The position numbers were made by a program, and so were the translations under genes. From a virus: a stretch of 28,558 nt of DNA. Positions 3,422 through 15,131 of this stretch are shown here, piece by piece. The notes under the pieces are model-generated. The model saw only the letters and a program-made list of their open reading frames with translations, had not been told where the DNA came from and made no database searches. The stretch covers positions 1 to 28,558 of the IMG/VR virus record IMGVR_UViG_3300024432_000057. One strand, 5' to 3'. How positions within the stretch are numbered: position 1 is the stretch's first letter; each line of letters opens with the position of its first letter.

Positions 3422-3691
3422 ATGACATTAAGGGAAGAGATAGCAAAATATCAAATGGAGTTGTATTGCTTCAGTAAGGGATGGGAAGTGGATGATTGGT
3501 ATGACCTACCCGATGAAGTTCACGAAAAATATAGAAGTGAGGCTGACCAAATCCTCGCCAAAGTAAAAGAGCATCTGGAGAAAGTGGAAAAACCAGTAGC
3601 TTATTATCCCGATGATGGGATTGCCTTCTCGGCATATAGGAACGGCTATCAAGCCCAACTTGAAGCCATAATCAAATCACTAGAGGAGTAA
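3422..3691 (+). CDS. Hypothetical protein, 89 aa
   Basis: Starts immediately after the preceding stop and has AAGGAGG at the end of the previous gene as its ribosome binding site. The product is acidic and mostly helical (REEIAKYQMELYCFSKGW, later DQILAKVKEHLEKVEK), with a C-terminal helix LEAIIKSLEE. I do not recognise a family. Its position in a run of short accessory genes suggests a host-takeover or regulatory role, but that is only inference. Confidence 0.65.
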   Translation: MTLREEIAKYQMELYCFSKGWEVDDWYDLPDEVHEKYRSEADQILAKVKEHLEKVEKPVAYYPDDGIAFSAYRNGYQAQLEAIIKSLEE

Positions 3692-3693
3692 GA

Positions 3694-3951
3694 ATGGCAA
3701 AGATAACTGAAACCACCGATGAGAAAACTGGTATAACAACTCTAAAGAGACGATATTCTACCACAGTATTTGCACCATTTAAGGTTGATGTTCCTTATCG
3801 ATTCGACAAAAGATTAATAGCAGAGATAAGTGAAGGTACGATTGTAGGCTTCAGTGCCTTGGCTGATTTCTGTGGTGCAACGCCTGATGACATAGAAAGA
3901 GCAATTAAGTTTCTACAAAAGGTGATTGATGTTATGAGGGAGAATAAATAA
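3694..3951 (+). CDS. Hypothetical protein, 85 aa
   Basis: Good ribosome binding site (GAGGAG) and a two-base gap to the preceding gene. The product has a basic N-terminal half with beta-like segments (TTVFAPFKVDVPYRFDK) and a C-terminal helix (DDIERAIKFLQKVIDVM). It overlaps the next ATG by one base. No family recognised. Confidence 0.6.
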   Translation: MAKITETTDEKTGITTLKRRYSTTVFAPFKVDVPYRFDKRLIAEISEGTIVGFSALADFCGATPDDIERAIKFLQKVIDVMRENK

Positions 3952-4439
3952 TGGCAGAAGATAAAGCAGCAAGCCAGTTCTATTGTTTTAAGTGCAAGAG
4001 GACATTCCCGCTTGAAAAAGAAGAGGGGAAAATAACTTATGCTGATGGTATCTGTGGTGATTGCCTAGTAGAAGATGATGTTAGGCTGACACGGGAGGAA
4101 TACATAAAGGCGTTCACTGATAGGGGCATACCAGAGGTCTGTGCAGTTTACGATGAAGATACGATAGCTGCCCTCGATGAACAGATAGACAAGATGCTAA
4201 GGCTCGGTTATATCAAGCCCACTGAGGCACCAGCTTTATTGAGTGAGGATAACATGACTATAGACGAAGCTATCGAAATTCTAACACCCTTGACTGATGC
4301 AGACACAACACCATTAACTTACGGTGAAACGGAATCCATCAAGCTAGGCATCGCAGCCCTGAAACTGGTAAGAAATAACGATGATGCGCCTTTGCTACCA
4401 GGGGAAACAGTACCAAATGAGACTTTAGATCGGGATTAG
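3951..4439 (+). CDS. Zinc-ribbon protein of unknown function, 162 aa
   Basis: The N-terminal 40 residues hold two CxxC pairs (FKCK is preceded by C, giving CFKC; then CGDC) separated by about 20 residues, a zinc-ribbon arrangement. An acidic helical middle follows (DEDTIAALDEQIDKMLRLGY), then a second helical part (IDEAIEILTPL, ESIKLGIAALKLV). No catalytic motif is visible. The start overlaps the previous stop by one base. It could be a small regulator or adaptor; the function is unknown. Confidence 0.65.
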   Translation: MAEDKAASQFYCFKCKRTFPLEKEEGKITYADGICGDCLVEDDVRLTREEYIKAFTDRGIPEVCAVYDEDTIAALDEQIDKMLRLGYIKPTEAPALLSEDNMTIDEAIEILTPLTDADTTPLTYGETESIKLGIAALKLVRNNDDAPLLPGETVPNETLDRD

Positions 4440-4455
4440 ATTGGAGGGTTTAAGG

Positions 4456-4743
4456 ATGAAATTCAGAAAGAAACCAATAGTGGTAGAGGCGGAGCAATTC
4501 CGCAAAGACAAAATACCTTACCCAGAGGGTGTCTATATCGGCAGTTCTTACTGCACTACGCAAGATGGGGGTGAGTGGTGTGAGCTACACAAGGCTTATC
4601 ACATTTACCCTATATATTGCATTAAGACGCTCGAAGGAGAGCACGTTGTCTCCCATCTAGACTGGATTATTACGGGGGTTCAAGGTGAGAAATACCCTTG
4701 TAAACCAGACATATTTGAACAGACCTATGAGCAAGTAGCCTGA
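4456..4743 (+). CDS. PGDYG-type phage protein, 95 aa
   Basis: I place the start at the ATG at 4456, eight bases after GGAGG. An in-frame TTG at 4441 lies before this site and is unlikely. The protein begins MKFRKKPIVVEAEQF, the hallmark opening of a small protein family found in many phages. In the middle it has SHLDWIITGVQGEKYPCKPDIF, which matches the conserved C-terminal block in which other members carry a PGDYG-like or GEKYPCKPDIF-like element. The biochemical role of the family is not established. Confidence 0.75.
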   Translation: MKFRKKPIVVEAEQFRKDKIPYPEGVYIGSSYCTTQDGGEWCELHKAYHIYPIYCIKTLEGEHVVSHLDWIITGVQGEKYPCKPDIFEQTYEQVA

Positions 4744-4765
4744 ATCTACCGTTTAGAGGGGGATT

Positions 4766-11004: not shown

Positions 11005-11328
11005 ATGGTACACCACAGATGTACGAGATGTAAGCAAGAGTCGTATCCCAGACATAAGTGGCACGGTGGCGTTTTCTGCGACGACTGTATAAGGTGGATA
11101 AGGGGCTTCCGGCCGCATATGGCGGTGCAACATAGTTGGCTCCGTCGATTGTGGGCTAGGATAGCTGACTTTGCCAGTGTCGTTGTCCAGCAGAAGCGGG
11201 TAAAGCGGGTCAGTCTGATTCAGGCTAAGGTAGAAAATAGAGCCAGACAGAGCCAGTACAAAGCCGTGCAGTCGAGGGCTAGGGATATCCCGGCTAGTGC
11301 TCAGAGCGCATTACCACAAAATAGGTAA
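11005..11328 (+). CDS. Zinc-ribbon protein, 107 aa
   Basis: Strong AAGGAGG ribosome binding site. The N-terminal 30 residues carry two CxxC pairs (CTRC and CDDC), a zinc ribbon. The rest is strongly basic and probably helical (RRLWARIADFASVVVQQKR, then an Arg/Gln-rich tail). It could bind nucleic acid in or near the head. No named family is recognised. Its end precedes the MuF gene by 25 bases. Confidence 0.6.
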   Translation: MVHHRCTRCKQESYPRHKWHGGVFCDDCIRWIRGFRPHMAVQHSWLRRLWARIADFASVVVQQKRVKRVSLIQAKVENRARQSQYKAVQSRARDIPASAQSALPQNR

Positions 11329-11353
11329 AACGATTAAGAATGGGGAGATTGTT

Positions 11354-12127
11354 ATGTCTCTTCTCTATGAAGCCAGACCCGAAGCCGGGCAGAAACAACG
11401 CTTTGCACCCGGCGATTGGGAGCGGGCTACTAACAAGCAGCAGAGAAGGCTAGTTCGTGCTTTCGACAAGTGGAGCGCGGAGATTAAGAAGCGAATGCGC
11501 ATCATGGCTGCTGCCGGGGCTTCTACTGTGGAGCAGCACGCTGTATTTGAAGAATCTCTGAGCAAACTTGAAGATAACCTCCTTGATTTGATTGAAAAGG
11601 GAATAGTATCTGCATCTAGGTTATCAGCTGGTGATAGAGCTGACTTGCCAGAAGTCAAAGAGCTTGCCGATAGGCACATTGCCGAGAATAAGAAGCTGGT
11701 GTCCGATGCGCTCATCCCTTCTATCCATAAGAAGCTCCTACCGACTATTGCTTTGGGGGCGGCGGTCAGTGCCACTGCACTTAGCACGGCTTTTAACACG
11801 GTCAGGGCTGCGCCAGCTCAATACGCCGGTGGGTACTGGGTGATGATTTTCGATACCCAGAAAACACTCGGCAAGAAGAGAGAACTAGAGCGCATTTCAG
11901 CAGGAGAGGATGTAGAACCTATCAGATGGGTAATAGACCCGCGTGCCGTACATTGTGTGGCGTCTAGTGGGCATTATGGGTGTAAAGACCTTGCAGGGAT
12001 TTATGAAGGAGGTTGGTCTGCCCTTCCTACTATTCCTGCGGGCTTAACAACGTGCCGTGGGAATTGCAGATGTCACTTGGAGGTTAAGAGGGATGGGAAG
12101 TGGCAGCGTGGTGTCTATGGAGATTAA
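11354..12127 (+). CDS. MuF-like minor head protein
   Basis: A 257-aa protein starting at the ATG at 11354 behind GGGGAG; the frame is open further upstream, but that part overlaps the previous gene. The N-terminal two-thirds are helical and charged. The C-terminal 60 residues carry the conserved MuF (gpF) signature: WVIDPRAVHC, a GCKDLAGIYEGGWSALP block, then LTTCRGNCRCHLEV. MuF proteins bind the portal and occur in one or a few copies inside the head; some are injected with DNA. It follows the portal in the usual order. The short C-terminal extension carries no toxin domain that I recognise. Confidence 0.85.
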   Translation: MSLLYEARPEAGQKQRFAPGDWERATNKQQRRLVRAFDKWSAEIKKRMRIMAAAGASTVEQHAVFEESLSKLEDNLLDLIEKGIVSASRLSAGDRADLPEVKELADRHIAENKKLVSDALIPSIHKKLLPTIALGAAVSATALSTAFNTVRAAPAQYAGGYWVMIFDTQKTLGKKRELERISAGEDVEPIRWVIDPRAVHCVASSGHYGCKDLAGIYEGGWSALPTIPAGLTTCRGNCRCHLEVKRDGKWQRGVYGD

Positions 12128-12284
12128 GGAAGCCGAACATCTCGAAAGCCATGAAACCGAAATTGTCATAACTCCACACGACCTTTACCCAGATTATATC
12201 GAGCTATGCTGGAAGTGGTGCTGGGATTGCAATGACTATATTAGTTATTGGACTAGAGAAAAGAAGATTATGGAGATTAGTTGA
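12093..12284 (+). CDS. Hypothetical acidic Trp-rich protein, 63 aa
   Basis: Overlaps the end of the MuF gene. I prefer the ATG at 12093, which has GGAGG eight bases upstream; the ATG at 12117 is an alternative with a poor site and gives 55 aa. The C-terminal half is rich in Trp and Cys (ELCWKWCWDCNDYISYW), so a small metal site is possible. It is the last gene before the degenerate repeat array. No family recognised. Confidence 0.5.
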   Translation: MGSGSVVSMEIKEAEHLESHETEIVITPHDLYPDYIELCWKWCWDCNDYISYWTREKKIMEIS

Positions 12285-12301
12285 AGAAGTATCAGATAAT
12301 T

Positions 12302-13147
12302 GGTTAAAAATTGCAATATTTGCTAAAACTTGAAATAGAAGAGGGTAATATCCAGTTCTCGGTAAAATCATTCTAGGGCTCGAAATAAAAAACTGATAGT
12401 CCGATATGCTGTAATAATATTCAATAGGCTAAATGAAAATAGGGACAATCTAATATATGCTGGGATTTGTTAGGGTGTTAGAGGGAAATGGCGATAATTG
12501 GAAAGACGGGAAAATTCTGCGAAGCCCTAAATTAAAAAGCTGACAATGCGATATGTAGTAGAATTCTGTGGACTCTTGCAGGAAAATAACGATAGTCGGA
12601 TTTAGCTCGGAATTCTTCAAGGGACTAGATAAAAAACTGAACAATCGGAAAGTTGGTAAATTTCTACAAGGGCTTAAAAAAGAACGGTGATAATCCTAAA
12701 TCTAGGCACGAATTTGGGCTGTTTTTGCAGAAAAAAGACAATAACCGGATTGTTAAGAAATTTCTGCAACGGGTTACAGAAAAAGGGGGACAATCCGAAA
12801 GGTGGGATTTTTCTTCGAGGTTCTGGAGGAAATCGGTTGTAATAGTAAAGGGCGGGAATTTCTCGAACGGCTTGCAGGGAAAAAGTGGTTATGGCAAAGG
12901 GGTTGATTTTATTCAGGCTCTTGCGGGAAAAACTCAACAATGGTGAAAGGGTCATAATCCTGCGAGATCTTGAGGAAAAATGGTGGTAGTTCAATATAGG
13001 CAATGGATTCTTTGGGGTGTTAAATAGAAATAGAGATAAGCCGAAAGAGGGTAAAATCCTGTGAGTGTGTGTAGGAAAAAGGGAACAATTAAAAGTCCAC
13101 TTTTCTCAGTAGGCGCTTGCAGAGAAATCGTTACAATCCATTGCTGT
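12302..13147 (+). repeat. Degenerate tandem array, about 49-bp period, at least 16 units
   Basis: This 850-bp stretch has no credible gene. Read in register it divides into sixteen units of 46-51 bases from 12360 to 13147 (starts 12360, 12411, 12462, 12508, 12558, 12608, 12655, 12706, 12755, 12804, 12854, 12903, 12952, 13001, 13050, 13099), mean 49.25. A looser copy at 12302-12359 precedes them. Units are diverged but share an order of elements: a GGGAAATTTCT-like start, a TGCAAG...CTTGCAG core, a GGAAAAA run, a GACAAT element and a CGAAAGG end. The last eight units are 49 bases each except one of 50-base length at 12804. The period is not a multiple of three, so reading frames drift. It lies between the MuF and protease genes inside the late operon. 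Confidence 0.75.
13102..13127. repeat. Inverted repeat core of the last array unit
   Basis: The 13-base arms (13102-13114 and 13115-13127) can form 12 of 13 pairs, three of them G-U, with only one mismatch. This is the clearest dyad of the array. The unit at 12755 has a comparable one at 12761-12782 with nine of eleven pairs, and the unit at 12804 has seven consecutive pairs at 12810-12816 with 12826-12832. Confidence 0.65.
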
Positions 13148-13180
13148 AATGAAGTAGAAGCAGTGATATAGAGTTGTGAA

Positions 13181-13375
13181 TTGAAGACCATCACTAGGAA
13201 CTTAGGTAATTGGATGCCTGAATGCTGCCCTAAGTGCGGCCAAAACTTCTGGGAGCTGGACGACATTAGCCTCCACTGTATCTACGACGGGTATGTTGTC
13301 TACATCAATAATAAGATGATGACAGCTATTTTGAATGGAGAACTTGACAAAGCAAAATGCGTAAAAAATAATTAA
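13181..13375 (+). CDS. Small zinc-ribbon-like protein, 64 aa
   Basis: First ORF after the repeat array. The frame opens at TTG 13181; an ATG at 13214 would give 53 aa and also keeps the whole metal site. The sequence has CCPKCGQNFWELDD and then LHC, a Cys-rich ribbon with an incomplete second knuckle. The ribosome binding sites are weak for both starts, so expression may depend on read-through from upstream. A function cannot be named. Confidence 0.5.
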   Translation: MKTITRNLGNWMPECCPKCGQNFWELDDISLHCIYDGYVVYINNKMMTAILNGELDKAKCVKNN

Positions 13376-13391
13376 AGTATGGAGGTGTATC

Positions 13392-15131
13392 ATGCCTTTC
13401 GGACCGTATGATAATTTCCAGGATTGTCTTAATCAGAACCAGGACAAAGCCAACCCACCTGCTTTCTGTGCATACCTTCATAAGCAGATAACCGGAGCCT
13501 ACCCATCTGAAATGCAAGCTAATATGCCGGAAGATGCTTGGACTATCTTCTTAGAGAAGTATACCGGTCATCTTACCGGAGACGGAAAAGATAAACCTGC
13601 TCTTGAAGCCGAGAGAGAAGCTAACGGTGTTGGTATCACTGCATTAAACGAAGCCGGCTGGATTTACTCCCGTATTGGCTGGGTTCACCAGTTCGCAGCT
13701 CCGAAGCTCCGTAATGTTACAGGGGTAAGGGTATTCGCCACCGGGTCGTGGACTGATAGCGCTGGTAATGCAACTGATTATAAAGAAAGCGACCTGGATG
13801 TTATGGTGCAGGCCTTCAATGCTGGTGTACCTTCCAATGTTCCGCTAAAGGCCGGACACACGGCGGATAGCTTCAACCAGCAAATAGCCGAGAAGCTGGG
13901 AGTGCCAGTTGAGGTTGTTACCGGTGACCGCGGAAGTGGCCAGATCGCAATAGGTAGAATGGTTACACTAGAACGCCGGACTAACTTGTTATTCGGTGGC
14001 TTTGAAGGTGTACCTGATCCTATCGCAGATCTCATTGAATCCCGGCTCTATAATACCGTCTCCGTGGAAATTGAGGATGATGTCAACGGATACAAGGCCG
14101 TGATAACTGCGGTGGCCTTGTTAGGGGCTGAGGAACCGGCTGTAGATGTGGCTACATTAGATAGGGCTCTAGTCTTCGGCGGGAAACGACCTAATGCCCG
14201 GGTTGTCACTTTCTCCAATAATGCAGGGGACTTGGAACGTGAATTTGCCACGGTCAAGGAAAAGATGGCTGAAGTAATCAAAGGGATGCGCGGTGCACCT
14301 ATCTTTAGGGCTTTGCTGTCCACATTAACGAATCAGTTCAACCAGCTTATCAGGAAGAAAGGGGAACATCAGGCATCAGATATACCGGAAGAAGTGTTGC
14401 CTTTACTTATCGGTGAATATCAGGGGAATATCGATGCTCTTATTCGGTGGGCGAAGGGAGTAGGATTTGACCAATGTGTAGTAGACCTCCAGGGGAAGGT
14501 AACTGACCCTGTGAAAGTCTGTGGCTGGCTCAAGGGCCAAGCACTATCAAAGGAGGCAGGAATGGAATACCAGATTTCGGAAGAACAGTTAGCCGCTCTG
14601 ATTGCGGCTCTGGGGCTCAGTGAAGGGGCTACTTTTGAAGATATAATGGCCGCTATCGCAGAGTTGAAGGGTGGAGAAGGTGGAGAAGTAGCGCCCGGAG
14701 CTATGGCCGCTGAGTTCTCTAAGACGAAGACCGAATTGACGAAAGCCAAAGACCGGATTACCCTCTTAGAGAAGAGCGAAACAGAGCACGGCTTCCTCGA
14801 ACAGACCCGTCTGTTTACTGCGATCCCCAACCGTAAACCGGAGGAGATTGCCGTAGAGTTAGCCGAAATCCAGGATAAGCAGGGCAAGGAAGCCGCCGAT
14901 AGAATGCTTAGTACCTATCAGGAACTAGACAAGATGGGGCAGGCAGCTTTATCAGCCGTGGGAACTTCCCGAAAGGGCGATACCCAGGTTAGCTTTGAGC
15001 AGAAGGTAACTGACTACATGAAAGACCATCCAGATGTATCTTCAGCAGATGCAAATAAGGCGGTAATGCAGGCGAACCCCGGCTTGTATAGTCAATATGC
15101 AGCCGATGTTCGCGGTAAGAACGTAAGTTAA
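13392..15131 (+). CDS. Prohead protease fused to scaffold (Mu gpI-like)
   Basis: A 579-aa protein behind a clear GGAGGTG site. The first 35 residues (FGPYDNFQDCLNQNQDK...FCAYLHKQITG) form a small Cys-containing element seen in other phage capsid-protease proteins. The protease domain spans about 85-260, with PLKAGHTAD (His156) and NTVSVEI (Ser224) as the probable catalytic pair, as in gpI-type peptidases. The C-terminal part (about 390-579) is helical, with a coiled-coil-like stretch near 435-515, and should be the scaffold. It shapes the prohead and then cleaves internal proteins. A strong internal start at 14562 can make scaffold alone. Decoration and major capsid genes follow. Confidence 0.85.
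   Translation: MPFGPYDNFQDCLNQNQDKANPPAFCAYLHKQITGAYPSEMQANMPEDAWTIFLEKYTGHLTGDGKDKPALEAEREANGVGITALNEAGWIYSRIGWVHQFAAPKLRNVTGVRVFATGSWTDSAGNATDYKESDLDVMVQAFNAGVPSNVPLKAGHTADSFNQQIAEKLGVPVEVVTGDRGSGQIAIGRMVTLERRTNLLFGGFEGVPDPIADLIESRLYNTVSVEIEDDVNGYKAVITAVALLGAEEPAVDVATLDRALVFGGKRPNARVVTFSNNAGDLEREFATVKEKMAEVIKGMRGAPIFRALLSTLTNQFNQLIRKKGEHQASDIPEEVLPLLIGEYQGNIDALIRWAKGVGFDQCVVDLQGKVTDPVKVCGWLKGQALSKEAGMEYQISEEQLAALIAALGLSEGATFEDIMAAIAELKGGEGGEVAPGAMAAEFSKTKTELTKAKDRITLLEKSETEHGFLEQTRLFTAIPNRKPEEIAVELAEIQDKQGKEAADRMLSTYQELDKMGQAALSAVGTSRKGDTQVSFEQKVTDYMKDHPDVSSADANKAVMQANPGLYSQYAADVRGKNVS
14562..15131 (+). CDS. Internal in-frame start: scaffold protein (Mu gpZ-like), 189 aa
   Basis: Within the protease-scaffold gene, AAAGGAGG at 14549-14556 lies five bases before an in-frame ATG at 14562. 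It is as strong as the sites of neighbouring genes. The product begins MEYQISEEQLAALIAALG and contains only the helical scaffold part. Mu makes Z from inside I and lambda makes Nu3 from inside C by the same arrangement, which supports the reading. Direct proof of translation is lacking. Confidence 0.65.
   Translation: MEYQISEEQLAALIAALGLSEGATFEDIMAAIAELKGGEGGEVAPGAMAAEFSKTKTELTKAKDRITLLEKSETEHGFLEQTRLFTAIPNRKPEEIAVELAEIQDKQGKEAADRMLSTYQELDKMGQAALSAVGTSRKGDTQVSFEQKVTDYMKDHPDVSSADANKAVMQANPGLYSQYAADVRGKNVS

Follow-up and report, generated by a model that had tools for sequence, protein, structure and literature searches.

The stretch of DNA analysed here (28,558 nucleotides, called the window below) contains a degenerate tandem array at positions 12313–13139 of the + strand, made up of 17 diverged units arranged head to tail with a period of 49 bases. 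The array is non-coding and is located in the late head-gene region, between the gene for a MuF-like head protein and that for a small Zn-ribbon protein. The explanation we favour, with about an even chance of being right, is that of a lineage-specific, satellite-like array, which was amplified in tandem long ago within a cargo slot and has since been diverging under weak constraint.

Autocorrelation of positions 12280–13170 gives identities of 43% at lags 49, 98 and 147 and of 41% at lag 196, while none of 500 dinucleotide shuffles exceeds 35% (z of 10.85 for the observed value at lag 49). The first-pass annotation had claimed a degenerate array of about 49 bp here and had named a missing lag-49 peak as counter-evidence; the peak is present, far above shuffled sequence. 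Segmentation with a cyclic 49-column profile places the unit starts at 12313, 12361, 12411, 12460, 12509, 12558, 12607, 12656, 12705, 12756, 12805, 12854, 12903, 12952, 13001, 13051 and 13098, with the end of the array at 13139. The first unit is 48 bases long (one column short) and the second 50, followed by six units of 49, one of 51, five of 49, one of 50, one of 47 and a 42-base partial unit. The length is thus exactly 49 bp in 11 of the 17 units, with about six short indels across the whole array. In this phase, five of the last nine units are 49 bases long, rather than the eight counted earlier. Single-unit profile matches are found at each unit, the profile derived from the units recovering all of them at the expected pitch, with no comparable match elsewhere in the window. 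Directly upstream (12279–12312, + strand), a possible partial, frame-shifted extra unit can be discerned by eye, with TTGAAGAAGTATCAGATAAT resembling consensus columns 19–39, although it is unscored by the unit profile and uncertain. The constant-period, head-to-tail arrangement of a minisatellite-like tandem repeat is therefore present above chance; the high identity between copies that characterises such repeats is not, the mean pairwise identity of the units being 0.50. Tandem Repeats Finder does not detect the array, because the copies are less than about 70% alike.

The unit consensus is GGAAAATTCTGCAAGGGCTTGAAGAAAAAAGGTGATAATCCGAAATGTG, in which the elements listed in the first-pass annotation (CTGCAAG/CTTGCAG, GGAAAAA, GA(C/T)AAT and CGAAA) can be recognised. 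Columns T20, A28, A29 and A37 are near-invariant, and the blocks TTCT, AAAA and GA-AAT are conserved. The consensus also contains a dyad, TTCTGCAAG-GG-CTTGCAGAA, the arms of which pair in 73% of cells; this dyad was picked after inspection and is of uncertain significance. The array is C-poor, with a GC content of 37–41%, below that of most flanking genes. Within the array, the dominant sub-harmonic peak is at 8.2 bp, which differs from the helical repeat of 10.5 bp; phased A-tract (curved) DNA, in which A-tracts recur every 10–10.5 bp or so, is rejected on this basis.

The period of the array is not a multiple of three and its + strand is dense in stop codons (16 to 23 per frame over 828 bp), so the array is non-coding and a coding repeat is rejected. 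The longest open reading frames within it start with TTG and are inconsistent in strand. The earlier description of a real, degenerate, fixed-length, non-coding array holds. The four flanking reading frames described next are on the + strand. Upstream lies the MuF-like gene (11297–12127; about 46–58% identical in close relatives), named from its position and a cysteine/histidine motif, with no matches in Pfam or PHROG. Its stop codon is overlapped by a 55-codon open reading frame of uncertain coding status (12118–12284; the mechanical start in the reading-frame list is a GTG at 12057), for which no relatives were found. Downstream, the small Zn-ribbon gene (13181–13375), present at the same place in relatives L047, L126, L127 and L128, is followed by a head maturation protease-like gene (13392–15131; PHROG 3894 and 976; 46–53% identical in the closest relatives). 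The earlier statement that no plausible gene lies between the MuF and protease genes stands for about 12285–13180, but not for the 55-codon frame and the Zn-ribbon gene. The gene order in the window is terminase small subunit, Vut-type transporter and DpdA, terminase large subunit, portal, MuF-like protein, array, Zn-ribbon protein, head protease, scaffold and major head protein. A sigma-70-like site (TTGACA-17-AATAAT, 11 of 12 positions) is located at 13344–13372, shortly before the protease gene; it falls within Zn-ribbon codons (LDK) conserved in L047 and may be coding-driven. The DpdA-family gene (PF23859, 5472–6751) adjoins the Vut_1-type transporter gene, and the pair suggests a phage DNA modified with 7-deazaguanine from an imported precursor.

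Syntenic relatives were fetched via profiles of the head, portal, protease and MuF-like proteins; single-sequence protein searches found no relatives in viral contigs and, for the protease, none among phages, while alignment-based searches did retrieve them. The closest relatives share 50–70% protein identity (portal, capsid), and the array is absent from every relative with an intact MuF-protease interval, the number of copies found in relatives being zero. In L047 the site is empty: the last base of the MuF-like stop is 2339, and the Zn-ribbon gene begins with the ATG at 2341. The junction is similarly short in L127, L128 and L129, and in L126 the sole difference is an insert within the MuF-like gene. 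In comparison with these relatives, the inserted segment runs from the MuF-like stop to the Zn-ribbon start (12128–13180). In more distant relatives, the variable small reading frames between MuF and protease take up anything between next to nothing and about 2 kb, and none of them is periodic. The empty site in L047, the tight junctions and this variable cargo mark the array, together with the 55-codon frame, as an insertion that is lineage-specific and occupies a cargo slot. The first-pass annotation had named a conserved protein encoded at this site in related phages as counter-evidence; none is encoded there, the insertion being absent or other small reading frames present. The conserved gene order on both flanks argues against an assembly chimera.

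The MuF-protease interval is itself a hot spot for variable small genes, reaching about 2 kb, in L131, L134, L137, L142, L147, L149, L289 and others; that of L131 contains at least one further Zn-ribbon-like reading frame. The insert of L126 (about 3690–4590) is in frame, sits between the CRGNC and CRCNLEV motifs of the MuF-like protein and is intein-like, beginning with C and ending with N followed by C; it contains a 236-codon reading frame on the opposite strand.

No relatives of the array were found by blastn in phage and plasmid records or by pattern scans of viral records including IMG/VR, and the 21 matches in a pattern scan of GTDB contigs are not periodic. A unit profile run over 308 loci revealed no related array, nor did a sequence-only covariance model in 20 virus records or, more weakly (150 candidates scored per genome), in seven bacterial genomes. 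All these searches are insensitive to copies as diverged as the units are from one another. A non-triplet comb signal comparable to that of the array was not seen in the other loci scanned, except in L182, where a different array of short period occurs. A search of GTDB contigs by portal alignment found no prophage from which to assign a host.

The identity between units shows no clear dependence on their distance along the array, so their divergence is roughly star-like. The unit tree has a total length of 6.5–7.6 substitutions per column, or about 0.4 substitutions per site per unit; multiplied by 49 columns, this amounts to about 340 substitutions, against about six indels, a proportion of indels that seems low for unconstrained DNA when usual ratios are considered. 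Nine near-constant columns are observed, whereas simulation on the tree gives an expectation of 2.9 under the HKY model (p 0.001) and of 4.7 under GTR (p 0.045, marginal). This tree-based test was relied on in preference to a star-model test, which gives p 0.0004 and ignores the relatedness of the units. Allowing gamma rate variation among columns improves HKY by 4.8 log units and brings no gain under GTR. The column excess and the retention of length suggest constraint on the array. The selection on spacing or structure proposed in the first-pass annotation is weakly supported.

The observed basis for an amplification consists of the tandem structure, the roughly equal divergence of the units, their absence in relatives and the lack of coding. 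It is favoured by a period far above chance, the star-like identities, the empty site in L047 and the variable cargo of other relatives. A non-coding seed of 49 bp would have been amplified head to tail at the site flanked by the MuF-like and Zn-ribbon genes, once the phage had split from its known relatives, probably by slippage or unequal recombination. The units would then have diverged separately, chiefly by substitution, and would now be carried untranslated and C-poor inside the late head-gene region. The present constraint is probably slight, affecting length and some of the columns and falling short of a strict function, since GTR needs no rate variation among columns and leaves the excess of conserved columns marginal. 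Against such weak constraint alone stands the column excess under HKY, and the small number of indels speaks against unconstrained drift. Compact phage genomes also tend to shed useless DNA, and the persistence of the array through this much substitution per unit counts against its being a relic.

Some of these observations also speak for the main rival explanation, a functional DNA-binding array, which we consider less likely. Each degenerate site would comprise the dyad followed by the A-run and GAYAAT, at a 49-bp pitch, and the candidate reader would be a phage or host protein acting in replication, segregation, packaging or late transcription. The near-invariant columns and conserved blocks fit such sites, as do the few length changes and maintenance over long divergence; the excess of conserved columns is indirect evidence for them, and the half-sites are conserved without covariation, as DNA sites would be. 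However, a candidate binding protein was not found, the array is common to no relative and the dyad on which the sites are modelled was chosen post hoc. A pitch of 49 bp corresponds to 4.67 helical turns, so that successive sites rotate around the helix, and the array neither adjoins the terminase small subunit gene (1791–2441) nor coincides with a GC-skew turning point. A more specific form, that of a novel phage DNA element whose protein-recognition units in the head-assembly operon are kept for copy number and spacing over exact sequence, for example to organise or mark the phage DNA so that it can be packaged or its late genes transcribed, is improbable.

If the array does have a function, a DNA role, as repeated recognition sites or as a spacer, is more likely than a folded RNA. 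It is unlikely that the + strand transcript folds into many hairpins, or acts by titrating an RNA-binding protein or a type III toxin, although the array is on the late-gene strand, some phages reportedly make RNAs that mimic ToxI antitoxin repeats, and folding of the + strand is slightly better than that of dinucleotide shuffles (z of −1.7, 0 of 20). The dyad arms do not covary (p 0.27 with GU pairs, 0.81 with Watson-Crick pairs only), pairing is as good between arms of different units as within a unit, and RNAalifold finds zero consensus pairs in the units. Folding of the array is no better than that of column-shuffled controls, with a z of +0.7 on the + strand and of +2.3 on the − strand. 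A structured array of hairpins, as the first-pass annotation had envisaged, is disfavoured by the missing covariation and folding gain. Its other suggestion, a decoy, was tested for CsrA-type GGA motifs only and these are not enriched (23 observed, 23.0 expected), leaving a CsrA/Rsm-type sponge unsupported. No terminator-like sites were found in the array, so a terminator array is rejected, and no Rfam family matches it above chance. Capture of a fragment of a host or mobile-element repeat family would suit the cargo slot and the low GC content, but is very unlikely given that no related array was found in IMG/VR, GTDB contigs, or phage or plasmid records, even with the low sensitivity of those searches for diverged copies.

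Compact phage genomes rarely contain long non-coding arrays, and here the period is unbroken at half identity, which makes it possible to test on this array whether selection can act on spacing independently of sequence. Should the array be a relic, it shows that close to a kilobase of decaying satellite DNA can be carried in a phage head operon; should it be functional, it points to a phage DNA site not described before. As standard tandem-repeat software misses such arrays, they may be under-counted.

When the array is compared with known systems, CRISPR arrays and RNA anti-CRISPR mimics are like it in their period, which is several tens of bp, and in having a partial dyad. However, the near-identical repeats and unique, variable spacers of a CRISPR array are absent, no block of columns is exact and conservation spans the whole unit, so this identity is rejected, as it had been from the first. 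The type III antitoxin RNA repeats (ToxI, CptI, TenpI) and phage pseudo-ToxI are likewise tandem units of a few tens of nucleotides, but those antitoxin repeats are near-identical and form pseudoknots, while the array has no shared structure and no Rfam match and is accompanied by head genes and the Zn-ribbon gene instead of a toxin gene. Iteron and centromere-like arrays (plasmid iterons, parC/tubC) resemble it in their repeated degenerate sites, conserved blocks and fixed spacing; their sites are 11–22 bp long and lie near a rep or par gene, whereas the array has 17 units of 49 bp, with no rep or par gene identified nearby. In the distant relative L182, a non-coding, degenerate A-tract array, likely to be curved DNA, is located directly upstream of the portal gene (4480–4750). 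Like our array it is fixed-period DNA in a head operon, but its period is 9.8 bp and there is no sequence similarity; its lag-49 signal is a harmonic of that period and was rejected as a sign of kinship. The minisatellite-like VNTRs of bacteria and phages consist of non-coding units, tens of bp long and joined head to tail, which slippage or unequal recombination can explain, as in the array. Ordinary VNTRs have near-identical copies in variable number, while the copies of the array are about 50% identical and have nearly kept their length.
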